Assembly: GCA_944384855.1 (NCBI GenBank)
Contig: CALWUY010000050.1
Coordinates: forward strand, 162,619 to 226,618
Source: an uncultured Clostridia bacterium
Lineage (GTDB): Bacteria; Bacillota; Clostridia; Oscillospirales; Acutalibacteraceae
Reading direction: 5' to 3'
DNA: 64,000 nt
In this document: positions 43,395-63,795 of the stretch, piece by piece
How positions within the stretch are numbered: position 1 is the stretch's first letter
Layout: each line of letters begins with the position of its first letter
The notes under the pieces: model-generated
Database searches by the model: none
Seen by the model: only the letters and a program-made list of their open reading frames with translations
Told to the model about the DNA's origin: nothing
Program-made: the position numbers and the translations under genes

Positions 43395-44036
43395 TTGTTC
43401 AGACGTCTTATTGAGGATGTAAACGCCGTGCGCGACCGAGATCCTGCCGCGCGCAGTTTTCTGGAGGTCCTGCTTCTTTATCCGGGAGTAAAAGCGATAA
43501 GAATGCACAGGCGTGCCAACTTCTATTACCGGCATGGGCTTATGTTTTTAGCCCGGTATGTGTCTCAGAAAGCGGCAAGGAAAACAGGTATTGAAATACA
43601 TCCGGGCGCCAAAATAGGAAGGCGTCTGGTTATAGACCACGGTACGGGAATAGTTATAGGTGAGACTACCGAAATAGGTGACGATGTTTTAATATATCAG
43701 GGGGTAACTCTCGGAGGAACCGGAAAGGATACAGGGAAAAGACATCCTACTATAGGGAATAATGTTATGATATCCGCGGGCGCTAAAGTTCTGGGACCGT
43801 TTAAAATCGGCGACAATTCCCGCGTTGCAGCCGGGGCGGTAGTGCTTGAGGAAGTGCCTCCCAATTCCACCGTTGTAGGTATACCGGCAAGGGTAGTGCG
43901 GCAGGACGGCAGGAAGATAGGACAGCTTGACCAGATACATATTCCCGACCCCGTAAAACAGAAAATGGATGCTCTGGAAAACAGAATTTCCGAGCTTGAA
44001 CATATAATTTCCGGTTTGGAGGATAAAAATTTATGA
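43395..44036 (+). CDS. cysE: Serine O-acetyltransferase
   Basis: A 213-aa left-handed beta-helix acetyltransferase that turns serine and acetyl-CoA into O-acetylserine for cysteine synthesis. It has HPGAKIGRRLVIDHGTGIVIG, the catalytic His-Asp pair, and hexapeptide repeats to VGIPARVVR. The start is TTG 43395, 6 nt after GGGGGT. It overlaps cysS by 4 nt. No Cys T-box fits in the 52-nt upstream gap. Confidence 0.93.
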   Translation: MFRRLIEDVNAVRDRDPAARSFLEVLLLYPGVKAIRMHRRANFYYRHGLMFLARYVSQKAARKTGIEIHPGAKIGRRLVIDHGTGIVIGETTEIGDDVLIYQGVTLGGTGKDTGKRHPTIGNNVMISAGAKVLGPFKIGDNSRVAAGAVVLEEVPPNSTVVGIPARVVRQDGRKIGQLDQIHIPDPVKQKMDALENRISELEHIISGLEDKNL

Positions 44037-45418
44037 AAATTTTCAATACGCTCACACGCAGTAAAGACGAGTTTGTTCCCATAAAAGAGGGAGAAGCGAA
44101 AATTTACGCCTGCGGGCCTACGGTTTACAATTATATCCATATAGGCAACGCGCGCCCGCTGTGCGTGTTTGATGTACTCAGGCGTTATCTTGAATGGCGC
44201 GGATATAAGGTGAACTTTGTTCAGAATTTTACAGACATAGATGATAAACTCATAAAAAAAGCCAACGAAGAAAATATAACCGTACCGGAAGTCGCCGAAA
44301 GATTTATAGGAGAATTCTGGACAGATGCAAAGGGGCTCAATGTGAGGGAGGCTACCGTGCATCCGAGGGCTACGGAGAACATAGAACAGATAATAGAAAT
44401 AATTTCTTCTCTTATTGAAAACGGATATGCCTATACTGCGGGCGGAGACGTTTATTACAGAGCAAAGAAGTTCAGAGATTACGGCAAGCTTTCTCATCAG
44501 CCGCTTGAAGAGCTTGAGGCGGGAGCGAGCGAGCGTGTGGATTCGGGAGATATCAAGGAGGATCCTATGGACTTTTGCCTTTGGAAGGGCGCGAAGCCTG
44601 GCGAGCCGTACTGGGAATCACCATTCGGCAAGGGAAGACCGGGCTGGCATATAGAATGTTCGGCAATGGCATGCAGGTATTTAGGAAAGACAATCGATAT
44701 TCACTGCGGAGGACTTGACCTCATTTTCCCCCATCACGAAAATGAAATCGCCCAGAGCGAAGCGGCAAACGGCTGTGAATTCGCTCATTACTGGATGCAT
44801 AACGGTTTTATCAATGTCGATAATCACAAAATGTCAAAATCGCTCAACAATTTTTTCACGGTGCGTGATGTAGCGGAGAAATTCGGTTACGAGCCGATAC
44901 GTTATTTCCTGATATCATCTCAGTACAGGAGTCCGATAAATTATTCGGTTGAGATAATAGAGCAGGCGAAAAATTCGCTTGAAAGGCTTTACAACTGCCG
45001 TGATAACATAGATTTCGCGCTTAAAAACGCCGGTGAGGGAGGAGAAATCCCGGACTTTATCGAACAGCGCCGTCAGGAATTTATAGACGCAATGGAAGAT
45101 GACCTTAACACAGCAGACGCTTTAGCGGCGATATTTATGCTGGTTCGGGATATAAATACCGCAATATCCGAAGGTGCGGGCAAAACCGCGGTGGAGGCGT
45201 TTGCCGATATATTCGATCAGCTGACAGGGGTTTTAGGGTTAGTATACAACCGCAAAACCGAAGCGCTTGACAGCGAGATAGAGGAGCTTATCGAAAAACG
45301 CACCCAGGCCAGAAAGACAAAGGATTTCAAGACTGCCGATGAGATACGCGATAAGCTTAAGAAAATGGGAATAATACTTGAAGACACACCGCAGGGCGTA
45401 AAATGGAGCAGAATCTGA
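44033..45418 (+). CDS. cysS: Cysteinyl-tRNA synthetase
   Basis: A 461-aa class I synthetase that charges tRNA-Cys. HIGH-type motif HIGN in CGPTVYNYIHIGNARP, zinc ligands in CSAMACRYLG and the HHENEIAQSE segment, KMSKS at HKMSKSLNNF, and an anticodon-binding helical C-terminus. It is cotranscribed with cysE, a common pairing. Its substrate body type occurs at 61636-61710, but with a GAA anticodon. Confidence 0.97.
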   Translation: MKIFNTLTRSKDEFVPIKEGEAKIYACGPTVYNYIHIGNARPLCVFDVLRRYLEWRGYKVNFVQNFTDIDDKLIKKANEENITVPEVAERFIGEFWTDAKGLNVREATVHPRATENIEQIIEIISSLIENGYAYTAGGDVYYRAKKFRDYGKLSHQPLEELEAGASERVDSGDIKEDPMDFCLWKGAKPGEPYWESPFGKGRPGWHIECSAMACRYLGKTIDIHCGGLDLIFPHHENEIAQSEAANGCEFAHYWMHNGFINVDNHKMSKSLNNFFTVRDVAEKFGYEPIRYFLISSQYRSPINYSVEIIEQAKNSLERLYNCRDNIDFALKNAGEGGEIPDFIEQRRQEFIDAMEDDLNTADALAAIFMLVRDINTAISEGAGKTAVEAFADIFDQLTGVLGLVYNRKTEALDSEIEELIEKRTQARKTKDFKTADEIRDKLKKMGIILEDTPQGVKWSRI

Positions 45419-60983: not shown

Positions 60984-61183
60984 AGCTGATTTTTAAAATA
61001 CATTGAATTCAAGGCATATATTTATTGATGTAAATTTTAAATTAGAATAGTATAAATACAGTAAAGCAATTTTTTTGACGGACAATATAAAATCCGCATA
61101 AAAATCAGGTTATATTATTCAGGGAGATACCATAAAATAAAAGAAGGAAACGGATTTGAATTTAAAAAAATTTGAAAAAAATC

Positions 61184-61212
61184 TTGACAAATATCCTTGT
61201 GTGTGGTATTAT
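61184..61212 (+). promoter_or_regulatory. tRNA cluster promoter
   Basis: TTGACA (61184-61189), 17-nt spacer, TATTAT (61207-61212), 50 nt before tRNA-Val. The rest of 60984-61183 shows no gene. Confidence 0.75.
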
Positions 61213-61261
61213 ATTGTTCGTCGCCGGTGAGGTATACAAACCAGGCGCGGTCAAATAGCGT

Positions 61262-61337
61262 GGGAGCATAGCTCAGCTGGGAGAGCATCTGCCTTACAAG
61301 CAGAGGGTCACAGGTTCGAGCCCTGTTGTTCCCACCA
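61262..61337 (+). tRNA. tRNA-Val(TAC)
   Basis: Acceptor GGGAGCA/TGTTCCC, anticodon loop CTTACAA (TAC), T arm GGTTCGAGC, discriminator A, CCA encoded. Confidence 0.95.
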
Positions 61338-61339
61338 AT

Positions 61340-61416
61340 GGCCTGGTAGTTCAGCTGGTTAGAACGCTAGCCTGTCACGCTAGAGGTCGTGGGTTCGAGC
61401 CCCATCCAGGTCGCCA
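61340..61416 (+). tRNA. tRNA-Asp(GTC)
   Basis: Acceptor GGCCTGG/CCAGGTC, anticodon loop CTGTCAC (GTC), discriminator G, CCA encoded. Confidence 0.95.
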
Positions 61417-61419
61417 TTT

Positions 61420-61495
<76 letters not shown>

Positions 61496-61501
61496 ACCGA
61501 T

Positions 61502-61577
61502 GCGGATTTAGCTCATCTGGTAGAGCGCCACCTTGCCAAGGTGGAGGTAGCGAGTTCGAGCCTCGTAATCCGCTCCA
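61502..61577 (+). tRNA. tRNA-Gly(GCC)
   Basis: Acceptor GCGGATT/AATCCGC, anticodon loop TTGCCAA (GCC), discriminator U, CCA encoded. Confidence 0.95.
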
Positions 61578-61580
61578 CGC

Positions 61581-61619
61581 AAGGACGCTTAAGATACCTC
61601 TTTAAGCGTCCTTTTTTTA
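61581..61619 (+). terminator. tRNA cluster terminator
   Basis: AAGGACGCTTAA/TTAAGCGTCCTT 12-bp stem, seven-T tail. It precedes the fifth tRNA. Confidence 0.9.
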
Positions 61620-61635
61620 AAAAAGTTTAATACAC

Positions 61636-61710
61636 GGCACCATAGCCAAGCGGTAAGGCAGAGGTCTGAAAAACCTTTATTCCCCAGTTCGATTCTGGGT
61701 GGTGCCTCCA
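61636..61710 (+). tRNA. tRNA-Cys-like body carrying a GAA (Phe) anticodon
   Basis: The body is that of bacterial tRNA-Cys: GGCACCA/TGGTGCC acceptor, ATAGCCAAGCGGTAAGGCA D arm, GAGGT/ACCTT anticodon stem, T arm CCCAG-TTCGATT-CTGGG, U73 discriminator (the main Cys identity base) and encoded CCA. The anticodon loop is CTGAAAA, so positions 34-36 (61668-61670) read GAA instead of GCA. It lies 17 nt after the cluster terminator and has no promoter of its own. It could be a pseudo-tRNA, a sequencing error, or a mischarging species. Confidence 0.8.
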
Positions 61711-62060
61711 TAACTGTGCGACTAAAAAGCACAATGCTTGAAAACCCTCGAGAAATCGAGGGTTTTCAAGCATTTATGAGGCAAAAATTGAAAAGCATTT
61801 TTAGGGCACAAAATTTAATAATATGTTCGACCAAAGGGACTTGAACCGGGGATATGAAATTTTCCGGATTTAAAGTCCCTTTTTTCATTTCCGCAGCTTA
61901 CCCTGCTCCTCCACAGGGATTCGAACTCACGACATATATTCAGACCGTAATTTCTTTATTACATATAAAGATTTTACGGTCTTTTTTTATGCCCGTTTTT
62001 TTCCTTGTAACCGTACATAGCCGTATACTTTGCGGCTGAAAAACAAAGGAGGTTAACGAA
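61711..62060. other. Gene-free boundary region of the ParA/ParB element
   Basis: Contains a hairpin at 61733-61774 (18-19-bp perfect stem with GAAA loop; the T tail lies on the minus strand) and a hairpin at 61833-61884 (AAAGGGACTT/AAGTCCCTTT with T6). A terminator is at 61942-61988 (AGACCGTAA/TTACGGTCT with T7). Two minus-strand words resemble tRNA T arms (GGTTCAAGTCCC from 61836-61847, GAGTTCGAATCCC near 61915-61928) but do not pair properly. No gene is supported; this may be the junction of an integrative element with the tRNA cluster. Confidence 0.5.
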
Positions 62061-62885
62061 GTGAATTGCAAGGTAATTGCAATAGAAAATCAAAAAGGAG
62101 GTACGGGCAAATCTACTACCGCATTGAACCTCGGCGTCGGTCTTAAAATGAAAGGCAAAAAGGTTTTGCTTATTGACGCCGATCCGCAGGGTTCGCTTTC
62201 CATCAGTCTCGGAATCAAAAGACCGGACGAGTTGGATGTTTCCCTTGCAACCTTAATGAGTAAGGTAATCGACAACAAACCGTTTGATGATGACTACGGT
62301 ATCATTCATTGTAATGAGGGTATCGACCTGATGCCCTGTAATGTGGAACTGTCCGGCATTGAAAGCTATCTCTTTACGGTAATGAGCCGCGAGTGCATTA
62401 TGAGAACCTATGTCAATCAGGTTAAAAAGAATTATGATTACATTCTTATTGATTGCACCCCGTCACTCGGACTTCTGCCGATTAACGCTTTTGTCGCGGC
62501 GGACAGTATTATCGTACCGAGTCAGCCGAGAATTTTGTCTACCAAAGGTCTTGACCTGTTATTGCGAACTTATTCGCAGGTAAAGCGCGGTATTAACCCC
62601 GATCTTAAAATCGACGGCATCCTCTTTACAATGGTTGATTCACGAACAGTCAACGATAGGTCTGTTATTGAATCAATGCGGGAGAGCTTCGGTATGAAAA
62701 TCAATGTGTTCAATACCGTCATTCCCGCGTCCGTGCGCGTAACCGAAGCAAATATGGAGGGCAAAAGCATTTTTGCCTATGACGGCAAATGTAAGGTTGC
62801 CGACGCATACAAAAAACTGACGAAGGAGGTGCTGGATATTGCCGCGCGTGAAAAAGCTCGATTTAGGGATGACGGCTCTCGATGA
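62061..62885 (+). CDS. parA: ParA-family partition ATPase
   Basis: A 274-aa deviant Walker A ATPase: QKGGTGKSTTALNLG near residue 11 (KGGTGKST), LIDADPQGSLS, ILIDCTPSLGLLPINA and the C-terminal AAREKARFRDDGSR. It moves DNA or proteins with ParB. GTG start 62061 follows AAGGAGG. Its end overlaps parB by 47 nt. Plasmid- or ICE-type context; the chromosomal Noc at 17.7 kb is separate. Confidence 0.93.
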   Translation: MNCKVIAIENQKGGTGKSTTALNLGVGLKMKGKKVLLIDADPQGSLSISLGIKRPDELDVSLATLMSKVIDNKPFDDDYGIIHCNEGIDLMPCNVELSGIESYLFTVMSRECIMRTYVNQVKKNYDYILIDCTPSLGLLPINAFVAADSIIVPSQPRILSTKGLDLLLRTYSQVKRGINPDLKIDGILFTMVDSRTVNDRSVIESMRESFGMKINVFNTVIPASVRVTEANMEGKSIFAYDGKCKVADAYKKLTKEVLDIAAREKARFRDDGSR

Positions 62886-63795
62886 GTTGTTCATGAACGA
62901 CAAGGAACGAGCCGAAAATAAACTCCCGAAAATCTTTGATATCCCACTTTCGGAAATTGACGATTTCCCCGATCACCCCTACCGCGTTCTTGATGATGAG
63001 GATATGCAGAACCTTATGGAAAGTATCAAGGACAGAGGGGTTATCACTCCTGCTATGGTGCGAAAAAAGGGTGACGGCAGATATGAAATGATTTCCGGTC
63101 ATAGGCGTAAACACGCTTCCGAAAGGCTCGGACTTGAAACCTTGCGTTGCGAGGTTGTAGAGGTTAGCCGTAATGAAGCAATCATTTTAATGGTGGACTC
63201 TAACAGTCAGCGCTCGGAGATTGCTCCGTCGGATAAAGGAAAAGCATATAAGATGAAATTAGAGGCAATAAAAAGACTGCCCGGCAGACCACCAAAGAAT
63301 AATGTGCGCCCAGAGGGCGCAGATTTTGAAGATGGGCGTATGAATCGTTCAGATGAACAACTTGCTGAAAAGAGCGAGGACAGTGCAAGACAAATCCAAA
63401 GATATATCCGTCTTACCTACCTTGTCCCAGAGCTGCAAGACTTTGTGGATAAAGGTCAGATGAAAATGCGCCCTGCCGTGGAGCTTTCCTATCTTGATGA
63501 GGAAACTCAGAGAGATATCGTTGACCGTATAGATGAAACCGAAGCATTTCCGTCGCACGATCAGGCAATCCGTATTCGCAAGGCGTATGAAGCCGGCGAA
63601 ATCAACTACGATAAGGTCCGGGATATTATGGCTGAGGAAAAGCCTAATCAAAAGCCGAAATTCAAGTTTTCCTTTGACCGACTGAAACCGTATATTCCAA
63701 AGGACTATTCGGATAGCAAGGCTGAGGATTATGTTATAAAGGCTCTGGAGCATTATCAGAAGTATCTCAAAAAGCAACGGGAGCAGGCAAGGTAA
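62839..63795 (+). CDS. parB: ParB-family partition protein
   Basis: A 318-aa ParB/Srx-superfamily protein. The N-terminal domain has IPLSEIDDFPDHPYRVLDD, MQNLMESIKDRGVITPAMVR and the CTP-site ISGHRRKHASERLG (GHRR instead of GERR). A Q/S-rich middle (SNSQRSEIAPSDKGKAY), an HTH-like SEDSARQIQRYIRLTYLVPELQDFVDKGQM and a basic tail complete it. TTG start 62839 follows GGAGGTG by 7 nt. It works with the overlapping ParA in maintenance of an element; the parS site was not found in the window. Confidence 0.9.
   Translation: MPRVKKLDLGMTALDELFMNDKERAENKLPKIFDIPLSEIDDFPDHPYRVLDDEDMQNLMESIKDRGVITPAMVRKKGDGRYEMISGHRRKHASERLGLETLRCEVVEVSRNEAIILMVDSNSQRSEIAPSDKGKAYKMKLEAIKRLPGRPPKNNVRPEGADFEDGRMNRSDEQLAEKSEDSARQIQRYIRLTYLVPELQDFVDKGQMKMRPAVELSYLDEETQRDIVDRIDETEAFPSHDQAIRIRKAYEAGEINYDKVRDIMAEEKPNQKPKFKFSFDRLKPYIPKDYSDSKAEDYVIKALEHYQKYLKKQREQAR

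Follow-up and report, generated by a model that had tools for sequence, protein, structure and literature searches.

A tRNA gene at positions 61636-61710 of the window (the whole 64,000-nucleotide stretch of DNA analysed here) is the native tRNA-Cys gene of its genome. It stands last in a conserved Val-Asp-Phe-Gly-Cys tRNA cluster and is not an extra tRNA. In the assembly, its anticodon reads GAA because of a single A at 61669, where the compared related genes have C. This anticodon most likely stems from an error in the sequence or from a mutation that arose recently. It is less likely to reflect a new reading of the genetic code.

Results

A tRNA-Cys gene with a GAA anticodon

ARAGORN calls a tRNA with the anticodon GAA (61668-61670) at 61636-61710 on the + strand, and Rfam RF00005 scores it at 65.3 bits, with a cut-off of 29. 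The cloverleaf is canonical, with a Cys-type body, and the discriminator is U73, as in bacterial tRNA-Cys. A Cys-tRNA model (R1), built from 29 sequences with the window's own tRNA among them, gives the gene 103.2 bits, and the next place in the genome, at 58.6 bits, is the tRNA-Phe. Bacterial tRNA-Cys carries GCA, so the gene departs from that class in its anticodon and shares the GAA of tRNA-Phe. The initial annotation had described a tRNA with a Cys body, U73 and a Phe anticodon, lying 140 nt downstream of a normal tRNA-Phe(GAA); both observations are confirmed. The cluster comprises the following features.

61184..61212, + strand, promoter-like site TTGACA-17-TATTAT ahead of the cluster (11 of 12 consensus positions)
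61262..61337, + strand, tRNA-Val(TAC) (ARAGORN, Rfam)
61340..61416, + strand, tRNA-Asp(GTC) (ARAGORN, Rfam)
61420..61495, + strand, tRNA-Phe(GAA), the normal one (ARAGORN, Rfam)
61502..61577, + strand, tRNA-Gly(GCC) (ARAGORN, Rfam)
61581..61613, + strand, hairpin with a T-run between tRNA-Gly and tRNA-Cys, terminator-like; similar layout in most cluster-bearing relatives
61636..61710, + strand, native tRNA-Cys gene, anticodon GAA in the assembly (ARAGORN, Rfam, relatives)
61669, + strand, single point of difference: A in the window, C in the related tRNA-Cys compared

Two other origins for the gene were considered and rejected. A mix-up with tRNA-Phe during assembly does not fit, as the longest run common to the two tRNAs is 9 bases, in the T-arm. 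An imported or phage tRNA does not fit either: Cys-body patterns gave 0 matches in viral_contigs, and the tRNA cluster around the gene is one that relatives have too.

Relatives carry GCA at the same place

The tRNA-Cys(GCA) genes of two members of the same genus (G023 and G032) and of one member of the same order (G040) are identical to 61636-61710 at 74 of 75 bases, the sole difference being the middle anticodon base. The single C-to-A change at 61669, proposed by the initial annotation from the letters alone, is thus supported by direct comparison. Among 60 genomes searched, the window's own included, 30 gave matches (33 in all, 3 of them without a locus). One locus was taken from each of the 29 other genomes, and ARAGORN calls Cys(GCA) in 28 of these; the 29th (L053) is cut at a contig end and receives no call, and pattern searches read GCA in it. 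In 11 of 28 relatives' loci, tRNA-Cys follows the full series of tRNA-Val, -Asp, -Phe and -Gly, arranged as in the window; the remaining loci have fewer preceding cluster tRNAs, some of them being cut by contig ends. The other tRNAs compared were Val, Asp and Gly. Val and Gly are identical to those of G032 and G023, whereas Asp shows 1 differing base in 77.

Wider surveys gave the same reading. In the genus, 26 of 70 genomes match the Cys body, and all 25 besides the window's genome read GCA. The order gave matches in 173 of 394 genomes, the other 221 being without a match and so untyped; among the matches listed (at least 150, the window's own included), all 149 from other genomes read GCA. 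Contigs of the GTDB collection were scanned with exact patterns that fit one Cys-body type, had no positive control there, and were run on a collection that possibly leaves out the window's genome; 0 Cys bodies with GAA were found, and no Cys-body tRNA had A, G or T at position 35. The single base-35 match, in Candidatus Woesebacteria (L114), is called as tRNA-Tyr(GTA), and the base ahead of its encoded 3' end is A instead of U; we take this match as a genuine tRNA-Tyr. The conservation in several genomes that marks a dedicated mistranslating tRNA is therefore not seen in the genus, order and GTDB scans.

None of 48 window ORFs has a tblastn match, at 1e-10 or 1e-5, in 20 kb each of G023, G032 and G025, and the same ORFs were found in the window itself as a positive control. 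Gene order beyond the tRNA cluster is not common to the window and these 20-kb stretches, and since their protein genes are unmatched, orthology rests on the tRNA cluster.

Hairpin and promoter of the cluster

The site at 61184-61212 is the only promoter-like match within 61100-61900, a count of one that equals the shuffle mean of 1.0 and is weak alone. Between the hairpin at 61581-61613 and the tRNA at 61636, there is no sigma-70-like match, so that the terminator-like hairpin and the missing promoter of the initial annotation both hold. Terminator-like sites numbered 2, against a shuffle mean of 1.1. The Gly-Cys gap folds at -17.4 kcal/mol in the window, and it folds at -6 kcal/mol or better in 18 of 22 other loci with tRNA-Gly directly upstream; the gap of the remaining four (L041, L047, L051 and L059) has no such folding. 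Folding of the gap does not establish a terminator, and the last tRNA could be transcribed past the hairpin by read-through or from a weak local promoter. All 22 loci carry an intact GCA. The initial annotation had also suggested a decaying duplicate beyond a terminator, and this is unsupported because both the position of the gene and the folding gap are common to relatives whose GCA is intact.

A mobile element directly behind the tRNA

Directly after the CCA of the tRNA, the window diverges from its relatives and an element sequence begins, TAACTGTGCGACT.

61711..61774, + strand, mobile element end directly after CCA, with a long hairpin at 61733-61774; repeated behind other tRNAs
62061..62885, + strand, ParA-type ATPase gene, taken as the element's (Pfam AAA_31, CbiA)
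62839..63795, + strand, ParB-type gene, taken as the element's (Pfam ParB_N)

The element end is also found behind tRNA-Arg(TCT) (C49:4233-4634, L102), with all 390 bases searched matching at 91%, and behind a tRNA-Asn (C26:29111-29169, L105), with the first 56 bases matching at 89%. The element family in this genome thus appears to use tRNA 3' ends, and its presence behind three different tRNAs (Cys, Arg-TCT and Asn) suggests an integrative element that makes little demand on the tRNA's own sequence. A 27-base element end, with up to 3 mismatches allowed, occurs in none of the other 69 congeners (the genus has 70 genomes). A looser search of 198 genomes turned up a related copy in one congener (G430), with 68% identity over most of the stretch; the matches in 12 further genomes were all shorter. 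We rejected a foreign 3' half brought in by the element, as all bases except 61669 match G023 and G032 and the element end begins after the CCA. The element leaves the tRNA body intact, and the change at base 35 is unexplained by it. Within 61828-61950, near the element end and on the - strand, two short stretches resemble, by eye, the T-arm and 3' portions of tRNAs; ARAGORN makes no call there.

The A at 61669 is probably a consensus error

The synthetase that would charge a tRNA-Cys is encoded in the window.

44033..45418, + strand, cysteinyl-tRNA synthetase (CysRS) with an anticodon-binding domain; the sole gene of the assembly above the family cut-off

CysRS has the catalytic, DALR and anticodon-binding domains, and the assembly holds no second CysRS above the family cut-off. 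A partner synthetase that ignores the anticodon, another mark of a mistranslating tRNA, is therefore not what we found in the CysRS examined. Cys codon use is normal: of the 17531 codons in 48 window ORFs chosen by hand, 265 are for Cys, and C27 and C209 of CysRS itself, which we take to be zinc ligands, are encoded by TGC and TGT. A canonical CysRS together with normal Cys codon use means that a GCA tRNA is needed, yet 61636-61710 is the only Cys-bodied tRNA found. This need, the synteny of the cluster, the three relatives at 74 of 75 bases and the GCA of every relative typed all argue that the A at 61669 is probably an error of the draft consensus, with C (anticodon GCA) as the true base in the population; the base error itself we infer. 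Assembly error, which the initial annotation had raised as a possibility, thus becomes the most likely reading, at odds somewhat better than even. The gene would then work like any other tRNA-Cys: the single canonical CysRS would charge it, and it would read UGU and UGC.

The C-to-A change turns CAAAA into AAAAA, which on the other strand is a G-to-T after a T-run, and G-to-T after a T-run is a common miscall in short reads and in oxidised DNA. Against this reading, such errors are rare per base, and the absence of any other base-35-changed Cys-body tRNA from the GTDB scan indicates that consensus errors of this type are infrequent; the neighbouring tRNAs compared (Val, Asp and Gly) also show no sign of poor sequence.

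A possible recent mutation covered by a second tRNA-Cys

The change could also be real and recent, present in the strain or in part of the population, with an unassembled tRNA-Cys(GCA) covering for a mutant that would be largely idle as a poor substrate of CysRS and PheRS. We give this perhaps one chance in three. The draft genome has 2,686,215 bases in 96 contigs, a number that suggests assembly from a metagenome, and is 97.17% complete; the window lies at the end of one contig (C50). The initial annotation had proposed a search for another tRNA-Cys(GCA), and none was found in the assembly: DNA search, pattern, Rfam (43 tRNA places, 150 of 170 candidates scored) and the Cys-tRNA model (150 of 1107 candidates scored) found no further Cys-bodied tRNA, which speaks against a covering copy. 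A pattern match with one mismatch on C78 (L076) was rejected as a second tRNA-Cys, since ARAGORN finds no tRNA there. The result is weakened by a shortage of tRNAs in the assembly and by gaps in the Rfam list, as a tRNA-Ser(GCT) that ARAGORN finds on C78 (L031) is absent from the 43 places.

ARAGORN typed 41 of the 43 places, and none of the typed tRNAs was called as tRNA-Ile, although the minor Ile tRNA could be among the three with CAT. tRNA-Ile(GAT) is essential, so at least one essential tRNA is apparently missing from the assembly. Separately, a tRNA-like sequence lies directly upstream of an intact tRNA-Asn (C13:433-522, positions 134-223 of L072), with GTT in its anticodon arm, a disturbed 3' part, an Rfam score of 30.6 bits and no ARAGORN call.

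tRNA-Cys is often lacking from related drafts as well. Among the other congeners of good quality (at least 90% complete, at most 5% contamination), 19 of 38 have no tRNA-Cys match. The Cys model, applied to 11 no-match congeners of our choosing (150 of 519 to 871 candidates scored per genome; one of the 11, G430, has 6% contamination), was positive in 0 of 11 at 1e-12 and positive in the control G029. For 10 of the 25 matching congeners, the tRNA-Cys match is no more than 300 bases from a contig end, which indicates that assemblies tend to break beside the tRNA-Cys gene; the locus seems hard to assemble. With no tRNA-Ile found either and half of the good congeners without a match, the absent GCA tRNA is weak evidence, and this leaves room for a covering copy. 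Two tRNA-Cys copies do occur in 6 of the 173 matching genomes of the order, which favours a recent mutant, but two matches are seen in 0 of the 25 other congeners with the Cys body. The mobile element directly behind the tRNA makes a local rearrangement plausible, and the Cys and Phe determinants that the tRNA keeps and lacks, set out below, are in line with a mutant that both enzymes would charge poorly.

Charging of a hybrid tRNA

As listed in PMC9976931, bacterial Cys determinants include U73, G2-C71, C3-G70, G34, C35 and A36, and Phe determinants include the anticodon, A73, U20, U59, A26, U45, G44 and C10-G25. Measured against that list, in our numbering, 61636-61710 keeps U73, G2-C71, C3-G70, G34 and A36 and has lost C35; it has the Phe anticodon, U20, U59 and A26, and carries U73, A45 and U44 in place of A73, U45 and G44. 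The listed C10-G25 is also absent, a mismatch that says little because the D-stem of the window's normal tRNA-Phe likewise begins with G10. With the listed Cys determinant C35 lost and the listed Phe determinant A73 absent, charging by CysRS or PheRS should be poor, and we predict that the tRNA, if the A is real, would be a poor substrate for both.

A functional hybrid, charged by CysRS or weakly by PheRS, that would diversify proteins by inserting Cys at some Phe codons is for these reasons improbable, around the level of a one-in-twenty chance. Mistranslating anticodon-swapped tRNAs are known in bacteria (PMC10365949, PMC7609411 and PMC11415595), and this tRNA retains U73, which besides C35 is the major determinant for Cys. 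However, the change occurs in no relative typed, the assembly has no second CysRS above the cut-off and the existing one keeps its anticodon-binding domain, the tRNA is no additional gene but occupies the place of the native Cys gene, and the lost C35 and absent A73 lead us to expect poor charging by either enzyme from the PMC9976931 list. The more specific proposal that the native tRNA-Cys now brings Cys to Phe codons, with an unassembled second tRNA-Cys making this tolerable, strikes us as a shade more improbable still.

That the organism has no GCA tRNA, and that 61636-61710 is essential by other means such as RNA editing to GCA, is extremely improbable: no other Cys-bodied tRNA was found in a 97%-complete assembly, but Cys codons are used normally, all typed relatives read GCA, and we know of no A-to-C editing of a tRNA anticodon in bacteria.

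Discussion

If the more likely consensus error is correct, the case shows that single-base anticodon oddities in draft genomes need checking against orthologous clusters and reads before recoding is claimed. If the A is real, the gene would be a rare case in nature of an essential tRNA with a swapped anticodon, and it would show whether CysRS and PheRS are strict in rejecting hybrid tRNAs. Were it in truth to bring Cys to Phe codons, we would be seeing a natural Cys-for-Phe mistranslator at the point where it arises.

A Cys-body tRNA with GAA has no description among the best matches of our literature search. The closest known relation is bacterial tRNA-Cys(GCA) itself, which the gene resembles in 74 of 75 bases (G023, G032 and G040), in U73 and in the layout of cluster and hairpin, and from which it differs in having A instead of C as the middle anticodon base.

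Two known groups of tRNA also combine the body of one type with a foreign anticodon. In Streptomyces, tRNA-ProX has a tRNA-Pro body with an Ala, Asn or Thr anticodon and is mistranslating, as described in PMC10365949, and 61636-61710 is alike in joining the body of one tRNA to the anticodon of another amino acid. However, tRNA-ProX forms a family that is often found beside a special ProRSx, whereas here a native gene is affected in one genome and no special synthetase was found. Cys-type tRNAs with a UCA anticodon also exist in bacteria (PMC7609411 and PMC11415595), and the selC* tRNA-Cys (UCA) with CysRS* offers a second likeness as a Cys-type tRNA with a non-Cys anticodon. In the account given in PMC7609411, selC* tRNAs have a tRNA-Sec-like 8/4 structure and some of these systems have a CysRS without the anticodon-binding domain, whereas 61636-61710 folds into a canonical cloverleaf and the window's CysRS has that domain.
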